NCBI RefSeq assembly: GCF_000020525.1
Contig: NC_011026.1
Coordinates: 2,028,001 to 2,092,000, forward strand
Origin: Chloroherpeton thalassium ATCC 35110
GTDB taxonomy: Bacteria > Bacteroidota > Chlorobiia > Chlorobiales > Chloroherpetonaceae
DNA length: 64,000 bases
Direction of reading: 5' to 3'
Shown here: positions 17,568 to 57,373 of the stretch, piece after piece
How positions within the stretch are numbered: position 1 is the first letter of the stretch
How the letters are laid out: the number at the start of each line of letters is the position of its first letter
Made by a program: the position numbers and the translations under genes
The notes under the pieces: model-generated
Database searches by the model: none
What the model was told of the DNA's origin: nothing
What the model saw: only the letters and a program-made list of their open reading frames with translations

Positions 17568-20519
17568 ATGCCGGAATATGTTCACAATCAGTTTAATCAA
17601 TCAACATTATTAAATTCTGTTTTCTATTACGGCGAGAAAAAAATCCCAAAATTACTGGCTTTTCCGCAGTTCCCGACGGATGTTTTCTTAGGCCGCAAAG
17701 ACGACTTGGCGGCTGTGCATACAAAACTATTCAGTAAATCTTATCACATACTTCATGTTTGTACCTTCGGCTTGGTAAGTGGATTTGCAAAGTTTTTTAT
17801 GCGCAACAATTTGCTGCTCCTTGTAAACGGCGAGGGCGGCATCGGTAAGACCACTTTGGCGGCAAAATATTATTACACCTATCATAACGACTATGCGCAT
17901 TTGGCGTGGGTGTTTGCCGAAACAAGCCTCATTGAAGCGCTGCTTACTTTAGCCCTGCCGCTCGATATTTCCTTTGGCGATACAATGACGGAACTTGAGC
18001 GGCTCGATCTGCTCCTTGGCGAAATGGCCAATTTGAAAAAGCCCTGTTTGCTGATTGTGGATAATGCCAACCGTTTGGAGGAGCTTGAAAAATATTACGG
18101 CAAGTTGCGCTCCTGCCCGAATTTCCATATCCTTTTGACCTCGCGCGTTCGTGAGCTTTCAAATGCAAAGACGCATTTTGTCGGGCATTTGGATAAACAG
18201 ATTGCAAAAAAGCTTTTTACCGTGCATTATCCCGCGCATCGACGCGAAGAAGACGAGTTGCTGGAAGCCCTCTTGAAGGCCGTCGGCTACAACACGCTCG
18301 TGATTGAACTTTTGGCCAAAAGCCTGAAAAACGGCAATCGGTATCGGGTAAAATATCCGCTAAGCGAATTGTTAAAGGATTTGACCGAAAAAGGGCTTTT
18401 CGGGCTGCGCGAAAGCCATGAAGTGGAGACGCTTTACCACAGCTCGCAAGGGGCGCTGCGCAAGGAAAAGCCGGAAGCGATTCTTGCGGCCATGTATAGC
18501 CTTGCCGCGCTGCCCGAAACGCAGAGCGCATTGCTTTCGCTCTTTGCCGTGTTGCCCGCCGAAAAAATTTTGTTTGAAACCTTAGCAGATTTATTGCCAA
18601 ACACCGACACGCTTGATAGCGACCTTGCGGCGCTCGACAAAAAAGGCTGGATAGAGTTTGACGAGCAAGGAAAAAGCTTCAAATGCAGCCCGGTGGTGCA
18701 AGAAACCGTGCGAACCCAAAATAAGGCCGACCTTTTCGCCCGTTGCCTCCCCGTGATTGAGACGCTCATAGAAAAGTTTGATTATGAGGAAGGAATAGGG
18801 CATTTGCCGAATATTTCCTATCAAACCGGTTTTCTTTACGCCCGCTATGCGGAAAGCCTTCTCGGTTTCACAAATACATTAAACTATTCGGTTGCGGTGC
18901 TTTATGAAAGAATCGGCAGCTTTCATCAAACAACCGGAAATGTGCGAAAGGCGCTCGGCTTTTTTGACGCTGTAGCGAAAGTATTTGAAGAGCTTCACGA
19001 GGCGTATCCCGAGCAGGTGGGCTTCAAAAACGGGCTGGCCATTTCTTATGCAAAACTTGGCCAGATACACGACACACTGGGCGACGCCACGAAGGCGCTC
19101 GGCTTTTTTGAAGCGGATGCAAAATTAACGAAAGAGCTTCACGAGGCGTATCCCGAGCAGGTGGCCTTCAAAAACGGGCTGGCCATTTCTTATAACTATC
19201 TCGGAAATTCACACTTGACGTTAGGAAACAGTTCTAAAGCGCTGGATTTTTATGAGAAATATAACCGATTAATGAAGGGCTTGCACGAGACCTACCCCGA
19301 GCAGGTGGGCTTCAAAAACGGGCTGGCCATTTCTTATTCAAAACTTGGCGAGATACACGCCACACTGGGCGACGCCACGAAGGCGCTCGGCTTTTTTGAA
19401 GCGGAAACCAAGTTATTTGAAGAGCTTCACGAGGCGTATCCCGAGCAGGTGGGCTTCAAAAACGGGCTGGCCATTTCTTATGAAAAACTTGGCGAGACAC
19501 ACGCCACACTGGGCGACGCCACGAAGGCGCTCGGCTTTTTTGAAGTGTATGCAAAATTAACGAAAGAGCTTCACGAGGCGTATCCCGAGCAGGGTGGGCT
19601 TCAAAAACGGGGCTGGCCATTTTCTTATTCAAAACTTGGGCGAGACACACGCCACACTGGGGCGACGCCACGAAGGCGCTCGGCTTTTTTGAAGCGGATG
19701 CAAAAATTAACGAAAGAGCTTCACGAGGCGTATCCCGAGCAGGTGGGCTTCAAAAACGGGCTGGCCATTTCTTATGCAAAACTTGGCCAGACACACGACA
19801 CACTGGGCGACGCCACGAAGGCGCTCGGCTTTTTTGAAGCGTATGCAAAATTAACGAAAGAGCTTCACGAGGCGTATCCCGAGCAGGTGGGCTTCAAAAA
19901 CGGGCTGGCCATTTCTTATGAAAAACTTGGCGAGACACACGCTACACTGGGAGACGCCCTGAAGGCGCTCGGCTTTTTTGAAGCGGAAACCAAGTTATTT
20001 GAAGAGCTTCACGAGGCGTATCCCGAGCAGGTGGCCTTCAAAAACGGGCTGGCCATTTCTTATTCAAAACTTGGCCAGATACACGACACACTGGGCGACG
20101 CTGCGAAGGCGCTCGGCTTTTTTGAAGCGGAAACCAAGTTATTTGAAGAGCTTCACGAGGCGTATCCCGAGCAGGTGGGCTTCAAAAACGGGCTGGCCAT
20201 TTCTTATTCAAAACTTGGCGAGATACACGACACACTGGGCGACGCCACGAAGGCGCTCGGCTTTTTTGAAGCGGATGCAAAATTAACGAAAGAGCTTCAC
20301 GAGGCGTATCCCGAGCAGGTGGGCTTCAAAAACGGGCTGGCCATCTCTTATGCAAACCTCGGACAAATGCACGCCCGGCTCGAGGACGCCCTGAAGGGAA
20401 AAACCTATTTTGTACAAGCCGAAACGCTTTGGCGCGAGCTTACGGAAAAACATCCCGAAATTGCGGAATATCAAAAATTCCTTTCCATGGTAAGAAAGGA
20501 ACTGGAAAATTTGGGTTAA
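17568..20519 (+). CDS. NB-ARC STAND NTPase with ten near-identical C-terminal TPR units
   Basis: 983 residues. The NB-ARC core has Walker A GEGGIGKTT at 88-96, Walker B LLIVDNAN at 162-169, the sensor ILLTSR near 190 and GYNTLVIELLAKSL near 245. A winged-helix-like region follows (about 300-400), then a degenerate TPR, then ten 48-residue TPR units keyed on ELHEAYPEQVGFKNGLAISY. STAND proteins oligomerise on ligand binding, and TPRs are the usual sensor. A hydrophobic segment at about 56-79 seems inserted just before the Walker A strand. One TPR unit (19592-19712) carries six +1 homopolymer insertions that together restore the frame, scrambling about 40 residues. The TIR-like gene is its likely partner. 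Confidence 0.85.
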   Translation: MPEYVHNQFNQSTLLNSVFYYGEKKIPKLLAFPQFPTDVFLGRKDDLAAVHTKLFSKSYHILHVCTFGLVSGFAKFFMRNNLLLLVNGEGGIGKTTLAAKYYYTYHNDYAHLAWVFAETSLIEALLTLALPLDISFGDTMTELERLDLLLGEMANLKKPCLLIVDNANRLEELEKYYGKLRSCPNFHILLTSRVRELSNAKTHFVGHLDKQIAKKLFTVHYPAHRREEDELLEALLKAVGYNTLVIELLAKSLKNGNRYRVKYPLSELLKDLTEKGLFGLRESHEVETLYHSSQGALRKEKPEAILAAMYSLAALPETQSALLSLFAVLPAEKILFETLADLLPNTDTLDSDLAALDKKGWIEFDEQGKSFKCSPVVQETVRTQNKADLFARCLPVIETLIEKFDYEEGIGHLPNISYQTGFLYARYAESLLGFTNTLNYSVAVLYERIGSFHQTTGNVRKALGFFDAVAKVFEELHEAYPEQVGFKNGLAISYAKLGQIHDTLGDATKALGFFEADAKLTKELHEAYPEQVAFKNGLAISYNYLGNSHLTLGNSSKALDFYEKYNRLMKGLHETYPEQVGFKNGLAISYSKLGEIHATLGDATKALGFFEAETKLFEELHEAYPEQVGFKNGLAISYEKLGETHATLGDATKALGFFEVYAKLTKELHEAYPEQGGLQKRGWPFSYSKLGRDTRHTGATPRRRSAFLKRMQKLTKELHEAYPEQVGFKNGLAISYAKLGQTHDTLGDATKALGFFEAYAKLTKELHEAYPEQVGFKNGLAISYEKLGETHATLGDALKALGFFEAETKLFEELHEAYPEQVAFKNGLAISYSKLGQIHDTLGDAAKALGFFEAETKLFEELHEAYPEQVGFKNGLAISYSKLGEIHDTLGDATKALGFFEADAKLTKELHEAYPEQVGFKNGLAISYANLGQMHARLEDALKGKTYFVQAETLWRELTEKHPEIAEYQKFLSMVRKELENLG
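18990..20397 (+). repeat. Tandem 144-bp TPR-coding repeat array (10 units)
   Basis: The anchor GAGCTTCACGAGGCGTATCC recurs from 18990 every 144 bp to 20292, with one 150-bp interval at 19566-19716. Units are nearly identical at DNA level, including synonymous sites. They differ at a small set of positions (SY-A/E/S-KLG, TH or IH, D/A-TLGDA, KLTK or KLFE), so the array is a mosaic of shuffled variants. Unit 3 (from about 19190) is the most diverged. Confidence 0.95.
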
Positions 20520-20596: not shown

Positions 20597-20794
20597 GTGA
20601 ATGAATTTGCTTCTGAGGGGAATTCAGGGAGTTCAAGGATGAATGAATTCGCTTCTAAGGGGAATTCAGGGGGTTCAAATGTGAATGAATTCGCTTCGCA
20701 GGGGAATTCAGAGGGTTCAAATGTGAATGAATTCGCTTCGCAGGGGAATTCAGGGAGTTCAAAGATGAATGAGTTCGTTTCTGAGGGGAATTAG
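20597..20794 (+). repeat. 42-bp minisatellite (about 4.7 copies), possibly coding
   Basis: Units start at 20597, 20639, 20681, 20723 and 20765, exactly 42 bp apart; the last is cut short by TAG at 20792-20794. Each unit carries GAATTC-like blocks. One frame stays open throughout and would encode a 14-residue repeat of the type NEFASEGNSGSS from GTG 20597, giving about 65 residues. No good ribosome-binding site is seen and the changes are not biased to synonymous sites, so translation is doubtful. Confidence 0.85.
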
Positions 20795-21168
20795 GGCACT
20801 TCCGAAGTCCCCTCTTACCACTTTAAAGAACGCATTCGGATTTACAGCCTCAACCTGTGGATTCTTTGCCATGGGTTGAGAATGACGTGATTTGTTTCTT
20901 GTCATGCTGAATGGCGTGAATCATTCCCTCGTCTTGTAGATTCTTCGCCATGAGGCTGAGAATGACGCGTTTTGTTTCTTGTCATGCTGAGCAAAGCGAA
21001 GCATCCATGCCCGGTAACGTTGGATTCTTCGGATAAGAATCCTCAGAATGACATTGTTCCTTTTTGTGATGCTTCGCCGATGCCCGCTCAGAATGACATG
21101 TTTCTTTTTTGTCCTATTTTTGTTGTTTATTCAATCAAAATAGGCCATATCCAAAAGCGTTTTATGCC
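20795..21168. other. Intergenic region rich in dispersed repeats
   Basis: 374 bp before the subtilase. Two direct copies of the GATTCTTCGCC...CTTGTCATGCTGA repeat lie at 20860-20938 and 20939-21007. A third, rearranged copy follows at about 21030-21110. No gene is seen. Confidence 0.6.
20860..21007. repeat. Two tandem copies (79-bp period) of dispersed intergenic repeat
   Basis: Same family and orientation as 16551-16700. The second copy contains GTCATGCTGAGCAAAGCGAA, matching the copy at about 16594-16613. The two pairs bracket the TIR-like/STAND gene pair. Confidence 0.8.
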
Positions 21169-33043: not shown

Positions 33044-35215
33044 TTATAAAAATGAGTATTCAACATTATAGTTTTCCGGTTTAGCTAAGTATTCAATAAG
33101 ACCTAAATCTTTGTTATATGCTTTATCGGGAATAATAAAAGGAGATGAGCCGTATTCATCTTTGAATTGTTGAAGGTCTTTCACGACATAATATCTTGTA
33201 TGAATTTCCATTTTATAACGCTCTTCATAATTTGCCAGCATATAAGTTTCCTTATCGGCCTCAAGAATACAGCTTACGCTATCGATGTCTAATAATTCAA
33301 GTAGCATTGCTTTACTATTATGTGTTAGTTTATCAATGCGCCATTTTCCTGTTTCTTTAAAGACAGAATGTTCTTCGATGGCTAAAAAATCAATCTCGGT
33401 AAAAACATGATCTATTTTTTCTTGTAATGATTTTTCTTCTAACACTTCGCCGTTTGGCAATACATCATAACTTCGATTGATTACTTCTAAGTCGTAGGGC
33501 TTTGCCTCTTTCTTGTTTTCGGGCGGAGGCAAAACATAAACGGGTTTATATGTGCCAATCGTCTCTTTCGTTCGTATGCGATTGACCCGGCCAAATCGTT
33601 GAATGAGCGCATCCAACGGGGCGGCGTCCGTCACCATCACATCAAAGCTAATATCCAAACTTACCTCAACGACCTGTGTGGAAACCACAATACAGGCCTT
33701 GTTAGACGTGTTAAAATTCCCGTTCGGATTTCCGTCGTCGTCAAGTCCGAGCAACAGGCGCTCTTTTTCGTCTCTATCGCCTTTGGTAAATCGGCTGTGA
33801 ATGAGGAGAATCGGTGTTTCGGGGAACATTTCCTGAAGCTTGGAATACTCATCTTGCGCCGCTTTGACCCGATTACAAACAACCAGCACTTTCTTTTGCT
33901 CATTTATTGCTTGCGTGATAATCTCTGCCGCGCTCTCTCGATTGTCAATTTTGTGAATGATATGACGATTGAATTGTTCCAGCTCATCGTCTTCCAACCG
34001 GATTTCCGATACGGTTTCTTTGCCGAGCAAATCAATGATGCGGTTGTAAAGCAGCGTCGGCATGGTCGCCGTCCCGATATGAATATTGCAACCAAGATGC
34101 TTCAGCACCTGAATGATTTTCAGCACAATTGCCCGAGTCACCTCCGTGTAGGTGTGAATTTCATCCAAAATGACATCGCAGCCTTTGATGTCCATAATCA
34201 TAGCCTCGTAGCCGTTCGTTCCGAACGCAATGGCCGCAATTTGATGAGGCGTGAGAACTTTTACGGCAGCGCCGACATGGCCTTGAATAATTTTTTCTTC
34301 TTTGGATTTGCCGTCCAAAGCAATTTTCGAGGCCGCATGTAGCAAGCGAATGTCCATATCGGGATTGTCCGTTGCAAGGTCTTTTTTCACCCGCTTATAC
34401 ATGGCGTTGATGGAGGCTTGAAACGGCAAGGTATAAAACACGCGCCCCTTGCATCTTCTGAACAAAAAGTCCGTTTTGCCTGCGCCGGTAGAGGCCACAA
34501 CCATCGTATGCTTTTTTTCGGAAGAAGCATTTTTTAACGAAAGCGGATAAAGTTCATGACGCCGCTGATAGAAATCAAGCTTCGGCTGTTTGAATAGCCG
34601 CACAAGGTAATCGTCCGTTTTTCCGGAAAGCGCGGATGCGAAGTGATCGGCAGCCATTAATAGACCGCGCCATTCCGAATAACCGCTTTCACGAACGGCG
34701 TCTTCGCAATACGCAACCACCGCATCATAGGATGCTTGGGCTTCCTCTATGCTGATGTCTCGAACCGTAATGCCGAAAGCTGAAAGAAGTTGAAGTGCAT
34801 CGGATTTCCATAGCTCCCAATTTTTGCTATGAAGTAAAAAAGTATTATCACGGTCTTCATTCAAATCCAGAATACCTTTTCTTTTGGCATCATTCTCAAT
34901 AGATTTATGGTGCGCAATAATCATTTCAATTAATGCGGGGTGAATTTCTTTGTCAAATAATGAAAGGAAAAAACAAGAAGCAATTTCATGGCGAAACGGG
35001 GTATCCGGTTTTTTATTTATGGTTAAACGTTCTTGAAAAATCGTACTTGTTTTTCCAATATCGTGAAGAATTGCGCCGAGCTTTGCGATTTGGGGATTCA
35101 TGTTTGAATAAATCGCAATCTTTTCCGCCACATTGCAGACAAGAAGTAAATGTTCATGCAACGTGGTTTCTTCAGGCTTTCCTTTTGCTTTAATATGAGG
35201 GCAAACCCATTCCAT
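33044..35215 (-). CDS. cas3: CRISPR-associated nuclease-helicase Cas3 (HD plus SF2 helicase)
   Basis: 723 residues. The N-terminal HD nuclease has ILHDIGKTSTIFQERL at about 49-64 and IIAHHKS near 113. SF2 helicase motifs follow: Walker A ASTGAGKTD near 240, DEIH in VILDEIHTYTEV near 350, and motif VI QRFGRVNR near 540. Cas3 is recruited by target-bound Cascade to unwind and degrade foreign DNA, so this is a type I interference system. HD and helicase are fused in the usual order. It starts 1 bp after the cas5 stop, indicating tight coupling. Confidence 0.95.
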   Translation of the reverse strand: MEWVCPHIKAKGKPEETTLHEHLLLVCNVAEKIAIYSNMNPQIAKLGAILHDIGKTSTIFQERLTINKKPDTPFRHEIASCFFLSLFDKEIHPALIEMIIAHHKSIENDAKRKGILDLNEDRDNTFLLHSKNWELWKSDALQLLSAFGITVRDISIEEAQASYDAVVAYCEDAVRESGYSEWRGLLMAADHFASALSGKTDDYLVRLFKQPKLDFYQRRHELYPLSLKNASSEKKHTMVVASTGAGKTDFLFRRCKGRVFYTLPFQASINAMYKRVKKDLATDNPDMDIRLLHAASKIALDGKSKEEKIIQGHVGAAVKVLTPHQIAAIAFGTNGYEAMIMDIKGCDVILDEIHTYTEVTRAIVLKIIQVLKHLGCNIHIGTATMPTLLYNRIIDLLGKETVSEIRLEDDELEQFNRHIIHKIDNRESAAEIITQAINEQKKVLVVCNRVKAAQDEYSKLQEMFPETPILLIHSRFTKGDRDEKERLLLGLDDDGNPNGNFNTSNKACIVVSTQVVEVSLDISFDVMVTDAAPLDALIQRFGRVNRIRTKETIGTYKPVYVLPPPENKKEAKPYDLEVINRSYDVLPNGEVLEEKSLQEKIDHVFTEIDFLAIEEHSVFKETGKWRIDKLTHNSKAMLLELLDIDSVSCILEADKETYMLANYEERYKMEIHTRYYVVKDLQQFKDEYGSSPFIIPDKAYNKDLGLIEYLAKPENYNVEYSFL

Positions 35216-35216
35216 G

Positions 35217-35813
35217 TTAATAATTATTTTTCACAGGTGTTCCGACAATTTTTATATAACCGAACATTTTTTCATTTTGCTTATATCTATTATATCCCAC
35301 AAGAAATGATTGCTCATTCTTTTCAAATACGAGTTCAAATCCTGAAAAAAGTTCTTCATCCGTATCAAATTCTTCTTTGCCGATTTCTAATATTTCATCA
35401 TCCGGGTAAAGAATATCTTCATTTCTTGAAAGGCAAATGTGTTGTGTTGCCGCAATCTCGGCATCATTTGAATTTTGAAAAGCAAGAAATAAAACAGGCT
35501 CGAGCATCACGCCGCGAATCAATATGGCATAAGGGCGTTCGTAAGATTTGTTTTTTCTCGTACCTTTCTCGTTCCAGCCTCGGGGCTGAATTTGTTCTTG
35601 TTGCTGCGAGATTTGCTTATAGCTGAGGCGATGTCGGGCAATCTTTTTGATTTCCCCGTCATCATTTTTGAGCAGTTCGGGAAAAAGCTTTCGCTCAATT
35701 CCTGCAACAATTGAAGGGGTTAGAAATTGCTGACTATATGTTTCGCTATCTCTAACGGCTGTCCAAGGTTTTATAAAACCGAACTGACCGAAATATTTTA
35801 CGATGTAATACAT
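35217..35813 (-). CDS. cas5: CRISPR-associated protein Cas5
   Basis: 198 residues from ATG 35813. Starting there removes 38 residues that overlap the end of cas6 and look unlike protein. The N-terminal YFGQFGFIKPWTAVRD followed by QQFLTPSIVAGIERKLFPEL matches the Cas5 pattern of a first beta strand and a thumb-type segment ending in the ...P-S-x-x-x-G-I turn. Cas5 caps the 5' handle of crRNA in Cascade. The gene sits between cas6 (14 bp upstream) and cas3 (1 bp downstream). A PGING-type Cas5 is my best guess at subtype. Confidence 0.75.
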   Translation of the reverse strand: MYYIVKYFGQFGFIKPWTAVRDSETYSQQFLTPSIVAGIERKLFPELLKNDDGEIKKIARHRLSYKQISQQQEQIQPRGWNEKGTRKNKSYERPYAILIRGVMLEPVLFLAFQNSNDAEIAATQHICLSRNEDILYPDDEILEIGKEEFDTDEELFSGFELVFEKNEQSFLVGYNRYKQNEKMFGYIKIVGTPVKNNY

Positions 35814-35827
35814 AATGAAAAAGTGGT

Positions 35828-36484
35828 TTATAATAATGCGCCGAAACCGATTCCCGTTGAATTTCCGATACCGACATTCCAAGCAAATGCAAGAGTTTCC
35901 GGTTTTCCGGTAATAATTACAGGACACAAATTTGCTTTATTCTTGATTCCTTTATATGAAATTAATTTTACTTTCGCTTTGTCATAACTTCTATCGAATG
36001 ATATTTTTAACGATTCATCATTTATGCCAGCTTTTTTTAACTTTGTTTTCAATGTTTCCGTCATAAGTTTGTCCGATTCATTATCGAAGTAGAGATAATG
36101 AATTGATTTTTTATCCATTGTTCGTTTGATAAAAATTGGAGTGGCAAGCATAAATCTTTGTTCTGAACTGAACTCGGGGGTTTCAAAAATAACAACTTCT
36201 TTTACTGTCATTCCATAAGCAATATTGGGATTTATTTGAATTTGTTTAATTATCTTCATTAATGTTTCAGAATCATAAATACTAATGAACCAATATCCCC
36301 CTTTTGGAAAATCAAGATTATTATTATTTACGCCCCCGCCTCTTAACCATGAAAAAGAGTATAATGAAAGACTATCATGGATTTCTGCATCATTTACCCA
36401 TTTGTGAAAAATCCCTGCCAATACGGAATTGTGTTCGAACGGCACAGGGTCGGTATTTTTGGAAAGTTTTAAATACAGCCTCAT
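35828..36484 (-). CDS. cas6: CRISPR-associated endoribonuclease Cas6
   Basis: 218 residues from ATG 36484, where the typical Cas6 first strand MRLYLKLSKN begins; an upstream ATG at 36547 would add 21 non-conserved residues. The N-terminal PFEHNSVLAGIFHKWV has a histidine in the region where Cas6 catalytic residues lie. The C-terminal glycine-rich loop GIGNSTGIGFGAL is the strongest hallmark. Cas6 cuts pre-crRNA within the repeat stem. It is the first gene of the operon, although no array is in the window, so it must process an array elsewhere. Confidence 0.88.
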   Translation of the reverse strand: MRLYLKLSKNTDPVPFEHNSVLAGIFHKWVNDAEIHDSLSLYSFSWLRGGGVNNNNLDFPKGGYWFISIYDSETLMKIIKQIQINPNIAYGMTVKEVVIFETPEFSSEQRFMLATPIFIKRTMDKKSIHYLYFDNESDKLMTETLKTKLKKAGINDESLKISFDRSYDKAKVKLISYKGIKNKANLCPVIITGKPETLAFAWNVGIGNSTGIGFGALL

Positions 36485-36631
36485 TCGTGTTTTTGTTTTA
36501 TTGTGCAATGGTGTTTTTTGTCTTATCCCATCTTTCCCACACCGCAAATTCCATCATGCAATCGCCTTTTTACGGTTCGGCTTCTCGGACGAGCGGAGAT
36601 TTCGGGTGTCTCTTCAAGTTTTTAATCGTTT

Positions 36632-36727: not shown

Positions 36728-37708
36728 TTATTCAACCCCGTAAAGCTTTTGCATTCGTTTAATTTCCTCCGCGACGGACGCTCTAAGTTCCGGCGGTTTG
36801 AGGACTTCGACTTCCGCGCCGTATTTCAGCAGCCAACGCTTCAAGGCGTCCAAGCCGGAGATTTCCAGCCGCATGACGAGCGAGCCGTCCTCCTGCGTTT
36901 CGGTGGTTTGGCTGAGATGCCATTTGCGCTCGCGCATCCATCGCGCTTGATAGGGCGAAAAGCGAAGCTCGATGTCATAAAGCGTTTCGTCATGCGTCAT
37001 GTCGAAGGTTTTGGCCAAATAATTGTTCAGCGAAAAGTCTTCGGGGATGGCGAACGGGCGAGAGGTTTCGCGTATTTCCGAGATGCGGTTCAGGGCAAAA
37101 AAGCGCAACTCGCGGCGCAATTCGCAATGGGCAATCAGATACCAAGTGCCTTGCGCGAAATGCAAGTGATACGGATGCACGCCGCGCCGGCTCGTCTCGT
37201 TGCGCGAGGCCGCGTAGTAGGTAATGTCAATTACCTCGCGGCGATTGGCCGCCCGGTCTATTTGCTGAAAATGCTCGCGGTCAAGCGGACGGCTCGGCGG
37301 TGGGGGCTGCTCAAAGGAATAAATCTCCTCTTCGCTGAACGGGTCGCTTTTGCCGGGCAAATTTTCAAACACGCGGTGCATCGCCGATTCCAATTCCTTG
37401 TAGTAAGGTGTTTCTTCATACTGCTTCAAAATTCTTTGAAGCACCCCGAAGGCTTTGGCTTCGCCGTGTTTTAAATAGACGCTCGGTAAAAAGTAGTTCG
37501 GCTCGGTATAATAAAAACCGCGCTTGCTGCGGTCGTAAGCAATCGGTGCGCCGAGCAGGACGCGCATGTGTTCCAAATCGCGCTGCACACTTTTTTCACT
37601 GACCTCAAATTCGTCGGCCAATGTCCGGCAGTTCGGATATTTTTTCGCCCTTAGCTTTTCGTCGATTCGTTTCATCCGGTAAGTCGAAGCTCTCGAAACG
37701 GAGTGTTT
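36728..37708 (-). CDS. HTH-WYL domain transcriptional regulator
   Basis: About 326 residues from ATG 37708; GTG 37756 and a later ATG are alternatives, none with a clear ribosome-binding site. The N-terminal winged HTH is visible in CRTLADEFEVSEKSVQRDLEHM. The WYL domain (about 140-230) contains REVIDITYYAASRNETSRR and a GTWYLIAHCELRRELRFF stretch where the W-Y-L residues can be read. A WCX-like C-terminus follows. WYL proteins often regulate CRISPR and other defence operons in response to nucleic-acid or nucleotide ligands. This gene lies immediately upstream of cas6 in the same orientation and is the prime candidate regulator of the operon. Confidence 0.9.
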   Translation of the reverse strand, partial: KHSVSRASTYRMKRIDEKLRAKKYPNCRTLADEFEVSEKSVQRDLEHMRVLLGAPIAYDRSKRGFYYTEPNYFLPSVYLKHGEAKAFGVLQRILKQYEETPYYKELESAMHRVFENLPGKSDPFSEEEIYSFEQPPPPSRPLDREHFQQIDRAANRREVIDITYYAASRNETSRRGVHPYHLHFAQGTWYLIAHCELRRELRFFALNRISEIRETSRPFAIPEDFSLNNYLAKTFDMTHDETLYDIELRFSPYQARWMRERKWHLSQTTETQEDGSLVMRLEISGLDALKRWLLKYGAEVEVLKPPELRASVAEEIKRMQKLYGVE

Positions 37709-37776
37709 CATAATCGTTACAGTTTTGCGTGAAAGATATGACGGGGTGTCGGACACAGGCTGTCCGGGTGAAATTT

Positions 37777-40159: not shown

Positions 40160-41083
40160 TTACCAAGTGACTTTCGCAATTTTAAATTTGATAGGCACGG
40201 TCAAAGCGCCGGCCACGTCTTTATTTCCCGCTTTTGCCGGTTTAAAAATGGCTTCTTCACTTAAAACACGAATGGCTTCTTCATCGAGCAATTCGTGCGC
40301 CGTTTTCAGCAAGTCGATTCGGGTGAGGTTGCCCGACTCATCAACATACACACGAGCAACAACCAACCCTTCAATTTTGAGGTTTTTGGCAGTTTCTGGA
40401 TAGACAATTTTTTTAACGATGGCTGCCAGTCCGCCTTCCAATTCAACATCTTTTTCGACGGTTGCGATAGCTGCTTTTTCAACTTCTTCGGCTTGCTCCG
40501 CAGCTTTTCTAAGACCTTCATCTGTAATCGTAGCGGTGCTGATGCCTTTTATTTCAGTGGTTTCAACCATTTCTCCTGTTGAAGCAGATGCCAGTGCCAC
40601 TTCTTCAGTTGCAGGCGCAGGTGCTGGTTTAGCTGTTGGGGTTGGCTGTGCTACTGGTTTTTCGTGGGAGGTTTCTACCTTAGGCGCAGCTGGTTCAGCA
40701 GGTTTTGGCAGCGGTTTTGGCGCGCCAGCTTTAGCCAGCATTTGTCTTTGCGGTTCGCCCGTATCGCCAAAGCTAAAATCTTTTCTCACGGTAATATGAG
40801 AGGGCACAAAGATTTTGTTGGTTCTAAGTCTCGGCAGCCCGCGTTTAAAAACTTTCACGCTATACTGCCCTTCCGGGACGGCTAAAAAAACATAATAGCC
40901 TTGCGCATTGGTTAAGACCGCCCTTGAGGTTTCGCCAGAAACATAAACCGTTGCAGCCGCAATGGGTTTACCCGTTTCATCCGTCACTCTTCCCATCAAT
41001 CGTCCTGAATTAGCCTGAAGTAATCCTGCGCCTATAAAGTTGAAGAGTAAAAAAGCCTGAAGTAAAACAGTCTTCAGTAGCAT
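40160..41083 (-). CDS. TonB-family energy transducer with carboxypeptidase-regulatory-like domain
   Basis: 307 residues. An N-terminal hydrophobic segment (about 3-24) may be a signal peptide or uncleaved anchor. A CarbopepD-regulatory-like beta domain follows (about 27-105: GRVTDETGKPIAAATVYVSG), then a Pro/Ala-rich linker (about 118-165) and a TonB C-terminal domain (about 215-305: IVYPETAKNLKIEGLVVARV). TonB proteins transmit proton-motive energy to outer-membrane receptors. The gene is divergent from a TonB-dependent receptor and shares the intergenic region with it. The beta domain between anchor and linker is unusual. Without ExbB/ExbD nearby it must use a complex encoded elsewhere. Confidence 0.82.
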   Translation of the reverse strand: MLLKTVLLQAFLLFNFIGAGLLQANSGRLMGRVTDETGKPIAAATVYVSGETSRAVLTNAQGYYVFLAVPEGQYSVKVFKRGLPRLRTNKIFVPSHITVRKDFSFGDTGEPQRQMLAKAGAPKPLPKPAEPAAPKVETSHEKPVAQPTPTAKPAPAPATEEVALASASTGEMVETTEIKGISTATITDEGLRKAAEQAEEVEKAAIATVEKDVELEGGLAAIVKKIVYPETAKNLKIEGLVVARVYVDESGNLTRIDLLKTAHELLDEEAIRVLSEEAIFKPAKAGNKDVAGALTVPIKFKIAKVTW

Positions 41084-41180
41084 ATCAAGTAAGTTTAATT
41101 TTTATGAAATAGTAGTGTGTAATGTCGTTCGTCCTGTCATTGATCTAACAAATCTCAGCACTGCGAAAAAACGGTTTCTA

Positions 41181-41243
41181 TGTTAAGGCATTGTTAAAAA
41201 TATGTTAAGTCGAGTTTAATTCAGATGTTAAGCTATTGTTAAG
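41181..41243 (+). promoter_or_regulatory. Array of six TGTTAAG-like 7-mers at 11-12 bp spacing
   Basis: TGTTAAG or close variants start at 41181, 41192, 41203, 41214 (degenerate, GTTTAAT type), 41226 and 41237. The 7-bp box plus 4-bp spacer is the classical PhoB-type direct-repeat layout of OmpR-family operators. It lies 98 bp upstream of the tonB-like start (minus strand) and 220 bp before the receptor start. Confidence 0.75.
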
Positions 41244-41316
41244 AACGAAGCACGTGCATAGAACATATGCGCGTGAAAACTATCTTTGCGGCGCATGATA
41301 CAGGGTGTAAATAGGA

Positions 41317-41372
41317 TGTTAATCCAATATTAATTTTGGTTTAACAATTTTGTAATACGAGGATTCTATCTT
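41317..41372 (+). promoter_or_regulatory. Second 11-bp-spaced box array and probable -10 for the receptor
   Basis: TGTTAAT at 41317, TATTAAT at 41328, GTTTAAC at 41339 and TTGTAAT at 41350 are exactly 11 bp apart. A -10-like TATCTT follows at 41367, ten bases after the last box, the distance expected when an OmpR/PhoB-type activator replaces a -35. The receptor ATG is at 41464. Confidence 0.7.
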
Positions 41373-41463: not shown

Positions 41464-44253
41464 ATGAAAAGAATCAGACTCTCATTAGTGAAAGTTGCTT
41501 TTGTCTTGCTTCTTGTTTTAGGTGTATCCGCTGAATCGGTTTTTGCACAAACAGGTAAAGTTAGTGGCCGCGTTATAGATAAGGAATCAGCTGAGGAGCT
41601 TATCGGCGCTAGCGTTTCGATTGTTGGTACAACCAAGGGCGCGTTGACTGATTTGGATGGAAGCTATACCATCGCAGTTGCGCCAGGAAAATACGATTTG
41701 CGGGTTTCATATATCGGCTATCAGGTCAAGCTTGTAAAAGGGGTTGATGTAAAAGCAGGGGAAGTTGCCAAGCAAGATATTTTGATGGAAATCGAAGATG
41801 TGCAAGCTGATGAAATCGTTGTTGAAGCTGAGCTTAGCACCGCAACTGAAGGTGCTCTTTTAACAGAGCGCAAAAAGTCTTTGGCTGTTTCAGATGGTAT
41901 CAGTGCTGAATTTATTAAGAAAACACCAGACTCTGATGCCGGTGATGCGATTAAGCGCACCACAGGTGTTTCGGTTATGGGTGGAAAATACGTGTTTGTT
42001 AGAGGTTTGGGTGAGCGTTACAGCAATACGCAGCTCAACGGCGTGAATATTCCAAGCCCGGAGCCTGAGAAAAGGGTTGTTCCAATGGACATCATCCCTG
42101 CGTCGTTAATTGAAAATATTATCACTATAAAAACATTCTTGCCAGATCAGCCAGGTACTTTTGCTGGTGGCCTTGTGAGAATTAAGACGAAGGAATTCCC
42201 TGATGAATTTCAGTTAAACTTTAGTGCTTCAGGCGGATTTAACTCAAATGCTCATTTTAACGATATTTGGGGCTATGATGGTGGCAGCTTAGATTTTCTT
42301 GGCATAGATGATGGAACAAGAGAACTGCCAAATTATGGTGATATCAGCAATTATTCTAAGACACAATTAGGGAATTTTCTGAGCAGTTTTGATAATAACA
42401 CCTATCTACCTAAAGAATCACGATATTTTCCGAATCAAAGTTATAGTGTCTCAGTTGCTGATCAGATCAATGTTGGTGAATTGCCAGTTGGGTTTATTAC
42501 TAACCTGACTTATTCAAGCAGTGCTGAGTATAAAGATCAGTACTCGTTTTTCCCAAGTCCTAATGAAGGGGAGTTTGACTACGAATGGAACAGTCAAGTA
42601 GCGACATATAATGTGAATTGGGGTGGCGTATTGAACTTCAGTACAAAGCTTAATAACGATAATAAGCTTGGCTTGAAAACGACTTACAACCGCACTGCTG
42701 AGGATGAGGCGCTTTACTCAACAGGTATTAAGTATTACGAGAGCCCAACTACAACGCTTAGAAACACACGTTTAAGATATGTTGAGCGTCAAATGTGGTC
42801 AACTCAGCTTTCTGGTAATCACTATTTAAGCTGGTTAGCGAAATCAGAATTAGAGTGGAAAGCACAATATGCGTCAGCTAAACGCTATGAGCCGGATAAT
42901 AAGGAAACACAATTTTCCTATGATGAGGATACCCAAGAGTATACTTTTTACCCGGACAATCAACGTAACGGACGGTATTTCTCTGACTTAGATGATAACG
43001 AGTATGACTTCCTCGCAGATATTTCCGTTCCATTTAAACAGTGGGATGGCTTTAAGTCTAAGTTCAAATTTGGTGGTTTGTACACCTCTAAAGATAGAGA
43101 GTTTTGGGCAAGACGATTCAAGTTTACTCAAATAATTGATATGGGTGACGGAATCTCTCCAGAAGATTTATTTACGGCTTACAATGTTGCGGAAGGGTAT
43201 GTAGGTCTTATAGAAACAACTCAGCCAACCGACTCCTATAGTGCGGATGAAAAAGTAGCTGCAGGTTATGGAATGGTTGAATTGCCATTGACAAGAGATC
43301 TTCGTTTTGTTGGCGGTGTTAGAGTTGAAAAAAATGAGATGACCGTCAAGTCATATAAGGATAAAGATAAGACCATTCCGATTAATGGTGGGTTTGATGA
43401 AACAAATGTATTGCCGTCATTAAATCTGATTTACGAGTTAAATGATCAGATGAATGTGCGTAGTGCTTTTAGCCAAACAATTGCAAATCCTGAATTAAGA
43501 GAGCTCGCTCCATTTAAGTTTGATAGTTATCGTACCTCTATGGTAGGTAATCCTTACTTAGAGCAAACCACTATTCAGAATTATGACTTGCGCTGGGAGT
43601 GGTTCCCTGGTTTTGGTGAGTTGATTGCTGTCAGTTTGTTCTATAAGAATATTGACAAACCTCTTGAAGTTGTTGCACTTGCTGGATTTGGTACATCACC
43701 AGAAGAAACTGTGAATAACGGTAAAACCGCAACCAACTATGGTGTAGAGTTTGAGTTTAGAAAAAGCTTGAATTTTATAACGCCTACCCTTGAAAACTTT
43801 AGCGTTAGCACAAACATCACCTTCGTCCATTCTGAAATCACTCAAGGCGATTCGCTTTACAGATACAGCACCAGTTCCGGTCTTGAAAGCTTCCCTGTCG
43901 CTACTTCATTGAGAGGAACAAGAAAGATGCAAGGGCAGTCTCCTTACGTAATCAATGTGAATTTGAGCTACAATAACACTGACTACGGATTTTCTGGTAT
44001 GCTGCTCTATAACATTGTTGGTGAGAGAATTTACCGGTTGAACGGTAACCCAAATTTAAACTACAACTTTATTGAGAAGCCTCGCAATCAGCTCGATCTC
44101 TCTCTTAGCAAAACGTTGAATACGAATTTTAAAGTCAAGCTGAATATCAAGAACATTTTGAATGACCGCTATCTCATTATGTTTGGTGATGATGTGGCTG
44201 AGCGTTACAAAACAGGAACTACCTATTCATTTTCTTTATCATATGCTCTATAA
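41464..44253 (+). CDS. TonB-dependent outer-membrane receptor
   Basis: 929 residues. A signal peptide (about 1-29, ending VFAQ) is followed by a CarbopepD-regulatory-like domain (about 32-115: GKVSGRVIDKESAEELIGAS). The plug (about 130-240) contains TTGVSVMGGKYVFVRGLGER and the typical GTFAGGLVRIKTKEFP, followed by a 22-strand barrel with alternating aromatic/polar strands to the C-terminus. The substrate is not identifiable from sequence. An acidic lipoprotein gene follows after 38 bp and probably belongs to the same uptake unit. Two 11-bp-spaced box arrays upstream suggest control by a PhoB/OmpR-type regulator. Confidence 0.92.
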   Translation: MKRIRLSLVKVAFVLLLVLGVSAESVFAQTGKVSGRVIDKESAEELIGASVSIVGTTKGALTDLDGSYTIAVAPGKYDLRVSYIGYQVKLVKGVDVKAGEVAKQDILMEIEDVQADEIVVEAELSTATEGALLTERKKSLAVSDGISAEFIKKTPDSDAGDAIKRTTGVSVMGGKYVFVRGLGERYSNTQLNGVNIPSPEPEKRVVPMDIIPASLIENIITIKTFLPDQPGTFAGGLVRIKTKEFPDEFQLNFSASGGFNSNAHFNDIWGYDGGSLDFLGIDDGTRELPNYGDISNYSKTQLGNFLSSFDNNTYLPKESRYFPNQSYSVSVADQINVGELPVGFITNLTYSSSAEYKDQYSFFPSPNEGEFDYEWNSQVATYNVNWGGVLNFSTKLNNDNKLGLKTTYNRTAEDEALYSTGIKYYESPTTTLRNTRLRYVERQMWSTQLSGNHYLSWLAKSELEWKAQYASAKRYEPDNKETQFSYDEDTQEYTFYPDNQRNGRYFSDLDDNEYDFLADISVPFKQWDGFKSKFKFGGLYTSKDREFWARRFKFTQIIDMGDGISPEDLFTAYNVAEGYVGLIETTQPTDSYSADEKVAAGYGMVELPLTRDLRFVGGVRVEKNEMTVKSYKDKDKTIPINGGFDETNVLPSLNLIYELNDQMNVRSAFSQTIANPELRELAPFKFDSYRTSMVGNPYLEQTTIQNYDLRWEWFPGFGELIAVSLFYKNIDKPLEVVALAGFGTSPEETVNNGKTATNYGVEFEFRKSLNFITPTLENFSVSTNITFVHSEITQGDSLYRYSTSSGLESFPVATSLRGTRKMQGQSPYVINVNLSYNNTDYGFSGMLLYNIVGERIYRLNGNPNLNYNFIEKPRNQLDLSLSKTLNTNFKVKLNIKNILNDRYLIMFGDDVAERYKTGTTYSFSLSYAL

Positions 44254-44291: not shown

Positions 44292-45680
44292 ATGAAAGAC
44301 ATTCTCAGGAAGTTGATGTTAGTGTTGTCATTTGTCGCCGCAGTTGGTTTGGCTGGTTGCGATGACGATGATGATTGCGAAACTTGCCCAACTTGCGAAA
44401 CGACAACAGAAGAGTGGGATGCTACTTTGAGTGGTGATCTCACAGAATCAACGACTTTGGATGCAAGCAAAGTCTATCGTGTCAAAGGTTTTGTGAATGT
44501 TGAGCCAGGCGTTACATTAACGATTCCTGCTGGTACAAAGCTAATCGGTTTGAAAGGTGAGCTTGCAACATTGCAAACACTTAGAGGCGATGGAACAAAA
44601 GCCAGCGGACAGATTATTGCTGAAGGAACAGCTGCTAGTCCGATTGTCTTTACAAGCGCTGCTGCTGAAGGGTACAGAAGCCGTGGTGATATCGGTGGTA
44701 TCGTTCTAAATGGTTTAGCGAAAAATAACGTTGAAGGCGGTACTCGTACTGGTGAAGGTAATGCTGCTTCCGGTGGTGGCGATGATGATACTGATAACAG
44801 CGGAACTTTGAAATATGTTCGTGTTGAATGGGGCGGAACGGTTATTTCTGAAGGTAACGAAATCAACGGTTTCTCTTTCAACAGTGTCGGTTCTGGAACC
44901 ACTCTTGAGCACCTTCAATCACACTTCATCGCTGATGACGGCTATGAATGGTGGGGCGGTACTGTAAGTGCGAAGTACTTGGTTTCAACGGGTGTTGATG
45001 ACGACAACTTTGATATGGATAACGGTTGGACTGGTAACTTTCAGTTCGCTGTTTGTATTCAAGATCCTAACATTGGTAACTCTGGTTTTGAATCAAGCAA
45101 CGACGATGATGGTAGCGACAACACTCCATTGACTCATCCAACTGGTTATAACGTTACTTTGGTTGGTGCATACGACGGTTCTAAAGAAGATGACGGTCTT
45201 TTGTTGAAGAGCAACATGTCTGGTACATTTAAGAACATCATCATTGCAAACTTTGCTGATTATGGTGTTTACTTCAAAGATGATAAGACTGCAAGCAACT
45301 TCATGGACGCCGCAGCTGGTGATGATGATAAGCTCACACTTAGCAACATCATGGTTTATTGCAAAGGTACCACTGAAAGCAACAATACATCATCAATCTT
45401 TAACCCAACATCTAAAGTTGGTACATCAACTGTTGAAGCAATTGAAGCTGAACTTACAGCCAACACTGTATTTGGTGGAGACCCAGAATGGGCTTATGCA
45501 TATCCAGATGATCCATTCGAAGGTACAGTTCCTGACTTGATCCCAACCTCATCTGAAGTAACAAGCAAAGCAGCAGTTATTTCAGCTGGTGATTTCTTTG
45601 AAGCTACTGATTACATCGGTGCTTTTGATCCAAACGGTTCAAACTGGATGAGCGGTTGGACAAATTGGGATAGAGAATAA
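44292..45680 (+). CDS. Asp-rich surface lipoprotein, beta-helix-like
   Basis: 462 residues starting at ATG 44292, five bases after AGGAGG. The lipobox is LAGC at about 22, followed directly by DDDDDCETCPTC, a cysteine- and aspartate-rich stub. The remainder is rich in G, N, D, S and T with repeating beta patterns (VEPGVTLTIPAGTKLIGLKG; GTLKYVRVEWGG; GTTLEHLQSHFI), suggesting a right-handed beta-helix. Acidic loops such as DDGYEWWGG and GVDDDNFDMDNGW could bind calcium. It lies 38 bp after the TonB receptor, so it is probably its surface partner. The family is not named. A terminator follows. Confidence 0.8.
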   Translation: MKDILRKLMLVLSFVAAVGLAGCDDDDDCETCPTCETTTEEWDATLSGDLTESTTLDASKVYRVKGFVNVEPGVTLTIPAGTKLIGLKGELATLQTLRGDGTKASGQIIAEGTAASPIVFTSAAAEGYRSRGDIGGIVLNGLAKNNVEGGTRTGEGNAASGGGDDDTDNSGTLKYVRVEWGGTVISEGNEINGFSFNSVGSGTTLEHLQSHFIADDGYEWWGGTVSAKYLVSTGVDDDNFDMDNGWTGNFQFAVCIQDPNIGNSGFESSNDDDGSDNTPLTHPTGYNVTLVGAYDGSKEDDGLLLKSNMSGTFKNIIIANFADYGVYFKDDKTASNFMDAAAGDDDKLTLSNIMVYCKGTTESNNTSSIFNPTSKVGTSTVEAIEAELTANTVFGGDPEWAYAYPDDPFEGTVPDLIPTSSEVTSKAAVISAGDFFEATDYIGAFDPNGSNWMSGWTNWDRE

Positions 45681-45759: not shown

Positions 45760-46338
45760 ATGTATCGGATTCTTTCATTTTTAATGATTTTAAGTCTCGT
45801 TGGGTTCATGGGGTGCGGGAAAAAAGAAGTCAAGCAAAAGGTGCAAGAAAAAGAACCTGCTACATTGAGACCTTATTCCGAACCACTTCCCGATAGTGTG
45901 AAAAATAGAGCCTTTGAGTATGGGGCTGTTTCGCCAGATTCTTTAGCCAAAAAACTCGTTCTCGCGTTAGCTGAAAACGATACCACGAAATTATTGCAAC
46001 TTGCTGTGAGTCGAACGGAGTATTTGAATTGGATTTGGCCGGAAGAGCCAGCAAGCGATCCGAAGTTTAACATCCCACTCGAATTTGCCTGGGGAAATTT
46101 GTATCGCGATTCTTATAAAGGCGCAAAAAAAATGCTCAAATACTATGGTGGGAAAAAGTTGTCATTTGTTTCATTTGAGATAAAAGGGGAGTCCGTTTAT
46201 CATCAAACGTATGTCTATCACAGAAATCCGGTTTTGGTAGTGGAAAATGAAAGTGGCAAGCAAAAGCAAATTGAGAATTTAGGGACAATAGTGGAAATGA
46301 ATGGCAATTTTAAGTTCCTCTTTTATAAAAAGGATTAA
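45760..46338 (+). CDS. Putative lipoprotein of unknown function
   Basis: 192 residues with a lipoprotein signal (about 1-18) and lipobox-like GFMGC at about 15-19, followed by a Lys/Glu linker. The remainder (about 45-192) is a small soluble domain with WPEEPASDPKFNIPLEFAWG near 95 and no known motif. It sits alone between two strong terminators, so it is an independent transcript. A periplasmic role is inferred only from the signal. Confidence 0.75.
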   Translation: MYRILSFLMILSLVGFMGCGKKEVKQKVQEKEPATLRPYSEPLPDSVKNRAFEYGAVSPDSLAKKLVLALAENDTTKLLQLAVSRTEYLNWIWPEEPASDPKFNIPLEFAWGNLYRDSYKGAKKMLKYYGGKKLSFVSFEIKGESVYHQTYVYHRNPVLVVENESGKQKQIENLGTIVEMNGNFKFLFYKKD

Positions 46339-56107: not shown

Positions 56108-57373
56108 ATGAAAAGATTATTCTCTCTTTTGGCTATGTTGTTAATCGGCTTTACTCCAACATTCGCACAAACGGCAGTTGCTCCGACTGTTGGAGATGGC
56201 ACGAAAACCAATCCCTATCAAATAGCATCGTTAGAAAATCTATACTGGCTTGCTGACAAAGTGAATAATAGTAAGGAGACTTTCTCCGGAAAATACTTTA
56301 AGCAAACTAAAAATATTAGCGCATTAGAGACGAGTGACTGGTTTGATGGAAATGGATGGCAGCCGATAGGATATTTTAAAAATTCGGATGATAGTGTTTC
56401 CTTCAGTGGAACATACGATGGGGCAGATAAAAAGATAGATGGGCTGTACATAAACCGCCCTAAAAAGTTTTATGTCGGACTTTTTGGCTATACAAAAAAC
56501 GCAAGTATAGCAAATGTAGCTGTAACAAATGTATCTATAACAGGTGGAGGTATCCTCGGGGGACTTGTTGGTTCGAATAGTGAATCACCCATTACAAATA
56601 GTTATGTAACTGGCGTCATATACAGTGATGGTATTATGGGGATGATTGGGGGACTTGTTGGTTCGAATAGCAACTCAACAATCATGGATAGTTATATGAT
56701 TGGGGTTATAAACGGCAATGGTGCTACAAATATCGGGGGATTCATTGGAATGAATAGTAATTCAACTATTAGAAATAGTCGAGCTGCGGGGGCAATAAGT
56801 GGAGACTCGTTTGTCGGTGGGTTCATTGGAATGAACAGTAATTCAACTATTACGAATTGCTGTACAAATGGCGTTACTCATGGTAATGGTTTATTCGTCG
56901 GTGGGCTTGTTGGAATGAACAGTAGTTCAACCATAACAAATAGCTGTGCACGTGTTTCGGTAAATGGTAATGGTTCTACAGGTGGGTTTACAGGCTCAAA
57001 TAGTGATGGCTCAACCATAGCAAATTGCTATGTGATAGGCTCTGTAAATAGTGACAATGGATTTTATTTCGGTGGATTGGCCGGATTGAATACAGACCTC
57101 TCAAGTATAAAAAATTGTTACGCTGTAGCGAAGGTTACAGCAACGTTCTCCTTTGGCGGGCTTGTTGGGGAAAACAATAACAGTACTGTAAGCGCTTCGT
57201 TTTGGGATAAAACTGTTCAGGGCACTGGGAACAAGATTGGTGAAGGGAAAACTAGTATAGAAATGAAACAAAAAAGTACTTATACAGGATGGGATTTCGT
57301 CCGGGGCAAAGATGGGTTCTGGGATATAGATGAAACAAAGCTAAAAAATAATGGCTACCCATATTTGGAATAG
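56108..57373 (+). CDS. GLUG-repeat surface protein
   Basis: 421 residues with a signal peptide (about 1-20, ending TFAQ). An N-terminal region has NPYQIASLENLYWLADKVN, typical of the domain preceding GLUG repeats. Seven or so GLUG-type units follow (for example GGLVGSNSNSTIMDSY and GGFIGMNSNSTI), then a terminal SFWDKTVQGTG and a WDIDETKLKNNGYPYLE ending. The frame continues past the TAG stop toward a type IX sorting domain at 57476-57784 in the same frame, so the full-length ancestor was probably a T9SS cargo. AT-rich. Confidence 0.85.
   Translation: MKRLFSLLAMLLIGFTPTFAQTAVAPTVGDGTKTNPYQIASLENLYWLADKVNNSKETFSGKYFKQTKNISALETSDWFDGNGWQPIGYFKNSDDSVSFSGTYDGADKKIDGLYINRPKKFYVGLFGYTKNASIANVAVTNVSITGGGILGGLVGSNSESPITNSYVTGVIYSDGIMGMIGGLVGSNSNSTIMDSYMIGVINGNGATNIGGFIGMNSNSTIRNSRAAGAISGDSFVGGFIGMNSNSTITNCCTNGVTHGNGLFVGGLVGMNSSSTITNSCARVSVNGNGSTGGFTGSNSDGSTIANCYVIGSVNSDNGFYFGGLAGLNTDLSSIKNCYAVAKVTATFSFGGLVGENNNSTVSASFWDKTVQGTGNKIGEGKTSIEMKQKSTYTGWDFVRGKDGFWDIDETKLKNNGYPYLE

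Follow-up and report, generated by a model that had tools for sequence, protein, structure and literature searches.

The two arrays of 11-bp direct repeats that separate tonB from a divergently transcribed TonB-dependent receptor gene are, to judge from sequence comparison, very probably Pho boxes for PhoB (a probability of about 0.88), which would induce both tonB and the receptor operon under phosphate starvation. There is strong comparative evidence for their being PhoB binding sites, and the same predicted switch design recurs before phosphate-uptake genes across Bacteroidota/Chlorobiota. All positions are those of the window, i.e. the whole 64-kb stretch that was analyzed (2,028,001-2,092,000 of the single-contig 3,293,456-bp genome), unless they are marked as genome positions.

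The arrays lie in the divergent region between tonB (40160-41083, minus strand) and the receptor gene (41464-44253, plus strand), as the first-pass annotation had placed them. The 307-aa TonB combines a carboxypeptidase-regulatory-like domain with a TonB_C domain (Pfam, 2.6e-14). Its sequence cluster (C7) has members in the window and in the loci L109, L110, L112 and L124, and the divergent arrangement of tonB and receptor is kept in four relatives (G001, G003, G005 and G007; G-numbers label the genomes of relatives, of which G001 was the closest in the search). The 929-aa receptor is composed of CarbopepD_reg_2, plug and barrel domains, and resembles TIGR01782 below the cut-off of that family. 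It is followed on the plus strand by two further genes. The first of these (44292-45680) codes for an ElpS/FII-like predicted surface lipoprotein of 462 aa without a Pfam match, and the second (45760-46338) for a predicted lipoprotein of 192 aa, which matches neither Pfam nor NCBIfam and is kept as the third gene in the Chlorobiales relatives and in two further genomes. The pairing of the receptor with its 462-aa partner is conserved in the phylum, being present at 15 of the 16 receptor loci with enough flanking sequence; homologues of the partner are also found near a TonB receptor on plasmids of Alteromonas, Parabacteroides and Hymenobacter. A weak match to Pfam Beta_helix was obtained for one of 14 members of the partner family, the profile of the family found no match in the PDB, and the AlphaFold model of the ElpS-like partner is poor (pLDDT 32). 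The putative likeness to ElpS and to Fjoh_0546 was taken from the descriptions of these proteins in PMC8115612 and PMC2996285.

Elsewhere in the window, a CRISPR-cas cluster occupies the minus strand at 33044-36547, with a Cas3 helicase (33044-35215), a Cas6 C-terminal domain (35828-36547) and further, unassigned ORFs between and below. It is adjoined by a WYL-domain regulator (36728-37756). A 144-bp tandem repeat, coding-like in sequence, is present at 18948-20356 in about 9.7 copies that are 86% alike, and tandem repeats with periods of 42, 90 and 84 bp at 20598-20796 and 56558-56975 possibly belong to repeat proteins.

Array 1 (41181-41243, plus strand) consists of six TGTTAAG half-sites that start at 41181, 41192, 41203, 41214, 41226 and 41237. 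The steps between them, read directly in the window, are 11, 11, 11, 12 and 11 bp, and the CTTAACA strand of this array looks towards tonB. Array 2 (41306-41356, plus strand) adds five half-sites at 41306, 41317, 41328, 41339 and 41350, with steps of 11 bp throughout. Where the definition of a PHO box asks for at least two direct repeats in an 11-nt register, eleven units of the forms TGTTAAG/A/T were thus counted, with a single 12-bp step; the weakest are those at 41214 (GTTTAAT) and 41350 (TTGTAAT). The first-pass annotation had described ten such 7-mers, and its two groups, its 11-bp spacing and its one 12-bp step all hold, while the number has to be raised by one. The TTAA cores of array 2 are palindromic, and a weaker register can be read on the opposite strand, with its nearest unit at 41351-41357.

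The window contains three triples of TGTTAA at 11-bp steps with at most two mismatches, all of them within these arrays. In 100 dinucleotide-preserving shuffles of the window the same triple gave a mean of 0.00 and a maximum of 0, and in the whole 3.29-Mb genome array matches with zero to two mismatches are confined to this locus. Because of this uniqueness and the empty shuffles, the arrays are considered to lie beyond chance. At up to three mismatches the genome search returned 12 places, against 10 for a reversed-pattern control, and only the class of zero to two mismatches is informative for this genome. The three-mismatch places were accordingly left out as regulon members, except for one before a second pstS that is conserved in G001. 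Statements on the window's own genome are based on such pattern searches and on individual genome stretches.

The arrays are conserved in front of the receptor. A half-site matrix was scanned at 11-bp spacing over the 300 bp upstream of each receptor orthologue, and 14 out of 16 orthologues reached the threshold score of at least 17, against 1.1% of 267 other genes from the same loci (Mann-Whitney p 3e-11); the matrix was chosen after viewing the window and the first relatives and is in that respect data-dependent, whereas this choice has no bearing on the spacing test or on the control with other genes. The signal appears at the 11-bp step only, and steps of 7-10 or 12-17 bp give none. A strong array is absent upstream of two divergent orthologues among the 16 scanned.

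In several relatives, the promoter elements next to the arrays follow a spacing rule. When arrays are read on their CTTAACA strand, 6 out of 37 have a TAnnTTTG element that starts exactly 9 bp beyond their final half-site; in shuffles the mean is 0.03, and no single gap was hit more than twice. G003 alone contributes four of these six, and G007 and G015 the rest. In the divergent region of G003, one array lies at 9 bp from TATCTTTG on the tonB side and a second one at 9 bp from TACTTTTG on the receptor side, which is the layout of the window with cleaner elements. In the window the -7 elements are imperfect. On the tonB strand, the weak -7-like TTTTTTCG (41164-41171, minus strand) is a poor element located exactly 9 bp beyond array 1; together with this array it forms the best match in the whole genome (two mismatches) to the composite TTAACA-N5-TTAACA-N9-TAnnTTTG. 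A perfect TAnnTTTG, TATCTTTG, is present at 41281-41288 on the plus strand, 37 bp past array 1 and thus off the conserved spacing, and may possibly be a second promoter or a chance occurrence. For the receptor promoter, the -7 element is TATCTTGA, with the -7/-10-like TATCTT at 41367-41372 (plus strand). With 41356 as the final base of array 2, the ten bases previously given for this distance are exact in the plus-strand register, and the distance from the opposite register is 9 bp. Array 2 scores higher when read as TGTTAAG, whereas the receptor promoters of most Chlorobiales relatives have the opposite orientation; G101 and G098 likewise read TGTTAAG towards the receptor. The earlier proposal that one regulator could switch both tonB and the receptor fits the predicted arrangement in G003, where each promoter has its own array at 9 bp from a TAnnTTTG.

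Similar arrays were found near phosphate genes, i.e. near pstS, phytase-like, Na/Pi cotransporter/OprO-P and DUF47/PhoU-like genes, the very association whose absence was to count against phosphate starvation as the signal. In G101 pstS, which begins a pst operon, and the receptor have a single array between them, and genes for a PhoR-like kinase and a response regulator come just downstream. Arrays also precede the pstS genes of G003 and G009, and searches without any preselection of genes led to a phytase-like gene in G003 and, in G118, to the intergenic stretch that separates an OprO/P porin gene from a Na/Pi cotransporter-PhoU gene. G001 also has a second TonB receptor, whose downstream gene matches Pfam Phytase weakly; a box with TAGGTTTG at 9 bp is present there. 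The counterpart in the window's genome (genome positions 1496649-1500880; L222:650-4881) also joins a second TonB receptor to a weak Pfam Phytase gene, but unlike that of G001 it has only a poor array.

The search for the array near the pst/pho genes of the window's own genome, as recommended in the first-pass annotation, gave a divided answer: an array precedes the second pstS, weaker at three mismatches and conserved in G001, but the main pstSCAB operon has no such array. Such boxes also occur at further phosphate genes of the organism and of its relatives, but not at the main pstSCAB. At genome positions 2579372-2584607 (L135:3373-8608), the second pstS is directly followed by an unexpected neighbor, a gene for a 1431-aa Peptidase C25 of the gingipain type. 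No array was found at the pstS genes of G002, G005 and G013, nor at the receptor on the Parabacteroides plasmid. Several high-scoring arrays face genes without an evident phosphate link (neighbors of dnaA and mutL), and some of these are probably chance or unrelated occurrences.

As an unbiased test, the composite itself was searched with one mismatch in 395 genomes of the phylum. It was found in 69 of them, at 94 places in total, whereas its reversed control gave 17. Gene neighbors were read at 30 of the 94 loci, of which 26 had a readable gene within 350 bp. Downstream of the composite at these 26 loci are 11 DUF47/PhoU_div genes (three assigned by Pfam, eight by BLASTP to those three), four PstS, one metallophosphoesterase, one nuclease and one TonB receptor, so that PhoU-like DUF47 or PstS accounts for 15 of the 26. 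The conservation of the array at the receptor and the arrays at phosphate genes hence support phosphate starvation as the probable signal, which had initially been guessed from the box architecture.

Two response regulators of the window's genome have a strong OmpR-type domain, at genome positions 561091-561771 and 2681532-2682215. The regulator of the arrays is probably the former, as a predicted PhoB orthologue. Its best matches in G101 and G105 are the response regulators beside the receptor (adjoining pst-receptor-PhoR in G101 and immediately upstream of the receptor in G105), which in turn match 561091-561771 better than the other regulator; it is thus orthologous to regulators linked to PhoR, pst and the receptor. 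It keeps the PhoB-like recognition helix DRTVDVHI. It scores under the curated PhoB cut-offs TIGR02154 (209.7 versus 296.2 bits) and NF053854 (201.5 versus 270 bits), as do the receptor-linked regulators of G101 and G105, but these two are still its top families, 32 bits above the third. This regulator is an orphan without an adjacent kinase. A clear PhoR was not found in the window's genome, and the best match to the PhoR of G101 adjoins the regulator at 2681532-2682215. In G001, G007 and G009, arrays precede the phoB orthologue by a few hundred bases (L143, L145 and L146), which suggests that phoB is autoregulated there.

A different member of the OmpR family might bind the arrays instead, such as the regulator at 2681532-2682215, which has its own adjacent kinase and whose best family match is also PhoB, although non-specifically, or an ArcA-like redox regulator with its TGTTAA-type repeat boxes. 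For the latter, the Riemerella PhoP motif is reported to be similar to that of E. coli ArcA (PMC9603813). Nevertheless, the regulators next to the receptor in G101 and G105 are counterparts of the PhoB orthologue with its DRTVDVHI helix, and not of the other regulator. Across the phylum the arrays have phosphate genes as their neighbors, for which reason an ArcA-like regulator was set aside. Binding by another OmpR-family regulator is consequently judged unlikely.

TonB systems are mostly iron- or vitamin-regulated. On this ground the region could respond to iron or a cofactor, the usual form of control for tonB and TonB receptors, with the arrays being incidental or serving another signal. 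This is very improbable, given that conservation of the array is tied to phosphate genes and that the receptor-partner pair is linked to phosphate both by the literature and by the Alteromonas plasmid cluster. Still less credible is an AT-rich chance pattern or curvature element without operator function: array 2 is indeed degenerate and AT-rich, but the empty shuffles, the lack of any other genome match at zero to two mismatches and the cross-species conservation at the 11-bp step alone refute it as far as computation reaches.

For the Pho-box reading, the following mechanism is proposed. Under phosphate starvation, the phosphorylated PhoB orthologue (probably 561091-561771) would bind the 11-bp half-sites head-to-tail. 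PhoB~P on the arrays would then bring RNA polymerase to a -7 element of the TAnnTTTG type, about 9 bp further on, and by filling the arrays it would replace the -33 contact. Array 1 would most likely drive tonB, and array 2 the operon of the receptor, the ElpS-like protein and the 192-aa lipoprotein. The outer-membrane uptake machinery and its energy transducer would thereby be induced together at low phosphate. We infer binding, the direction of each array, the phosphate response and the substrate from the array, its conservation, the spacing, the neighboring phosphate genes and the orthology of the regulator; for the substrate, phosphate or a phosphate-releasing compound such as a phosphate ester is the simplest guess.

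PHO boxes are known as 11-nt direct repeats (PMC4415409), and the box of cyanobacterial SphR consists of CTTAACCT repeats with 3-bp linkers (PMC1906773). As in E. coli, B. subtilis and cyanobacteria, the arrays described here are multi-unit 11-bp direct repeats close upstream of a putative promoter -10, and in sequence they are closest to the cyanobacterial and Riemerella forms (CTTAAC/TTTAACA). Unlike known PHO boxes, they comprise six and five units in two arrays within one divergent region. The arrays of the relatives are located 9 bp from a Bacteroidota -7 TAnnTTTG, compared to 10 bp from a sigma-70 -10 in known PHO boxes. In Riemerella anatipestifer, the DAP-seq motif of PhoP, TTTAACA, is the complement of TGTTAAA (PMC9603813). 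The PhoPR regulon of that organism likewise involves a Bacteroidota Pho-type regulator, for which the same paper reports EMSA on a TonB receptor promoter. It differs in that the regulon is described there for virulence and aerotolerance, and no box-to-promoter spacing rule was found in the available text.

The receptor operon also has known counterparts. In F. johnsoniae, the phoBR operon contains Fjoh_0545 (a TonB transporter) and Fjoh_0546 (FII), which go up by 8.0 and 9.9 log2 upon Pi depletion, and FII is reported to be related to Caulobacter ElpS (PMC8115612). This locus, PUSIV, shares with the window a TonB receptor followed by a lipoprotein of putative beta-helix type, which is PhoB-linked in some relatives, and induction by Pi starvation is known from F. 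johnsoniae. In the window, by contrast, a dedicated tonB is transcribed away from the operon, to which phoB is not linked. Caulobacter ElpS is made under phosphate starvation, and elpS neighbors the receptor gene cc0171 (PMC2996285). The pairing of a TonB-dependent receptor with a lipoprotein is the same, the lipoprotein being the phosphate-starvation one in Caulobacter, but that organism belongs to another phylum, cc0171 is reported to be constitutive and ElpS to be secreted by the T2SS. On the Alteromonas plasmid (NZ_OX359244.1, 14905-28092; L170) the order is phoB-phoR-pstS-oxygenase-partner homologue-TonB receptor-DUF3450-exbB. This cluster has the appearance of a portable phosphate-linked TonB module; the best match to an E. 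coli-type pho box on the plasmid has three mismatches.

Whereas this kind of receptor/lipoprotein operon is already known from F. johnsoniae and Caulobacter, the predicted promoter layout appears to be undescribed. The openly accessible literature, to which the search was confined, held no account of how Pho-box promoters are laid out in Bacteroidota; for Bacteroidota and green sulfur bacteria relatives it yielded one published Pho motif, without a box-to-promoter layout. It is an evenly balanced question whether the layout represents a phylum-wide type of Pho promoter, in which CTTAACA in 11-bp register, 9 bp from a -7 TAnnTTTG, takes the place of the -33 and induces a receptor/ElpS-type lipoprotein pair along with a dedicated TonB energizer, as an actively energized outer-membrane route for phosphate or phosphate esters.

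With this reading, an anonymous TonB receptor becomes a testable member of the phosphate-starvation response. The operator and promoter signature may be used to search Bacteroidota and the relatives of green sulfur bacteria for Pho regulons, and the TonB energizer itself is predicted to be phosphate-controlled. The locus also suggests that TonB uptake across the outer membrane may be linked to phosphate, a question that concerns the ElpS/FII proteins as well.
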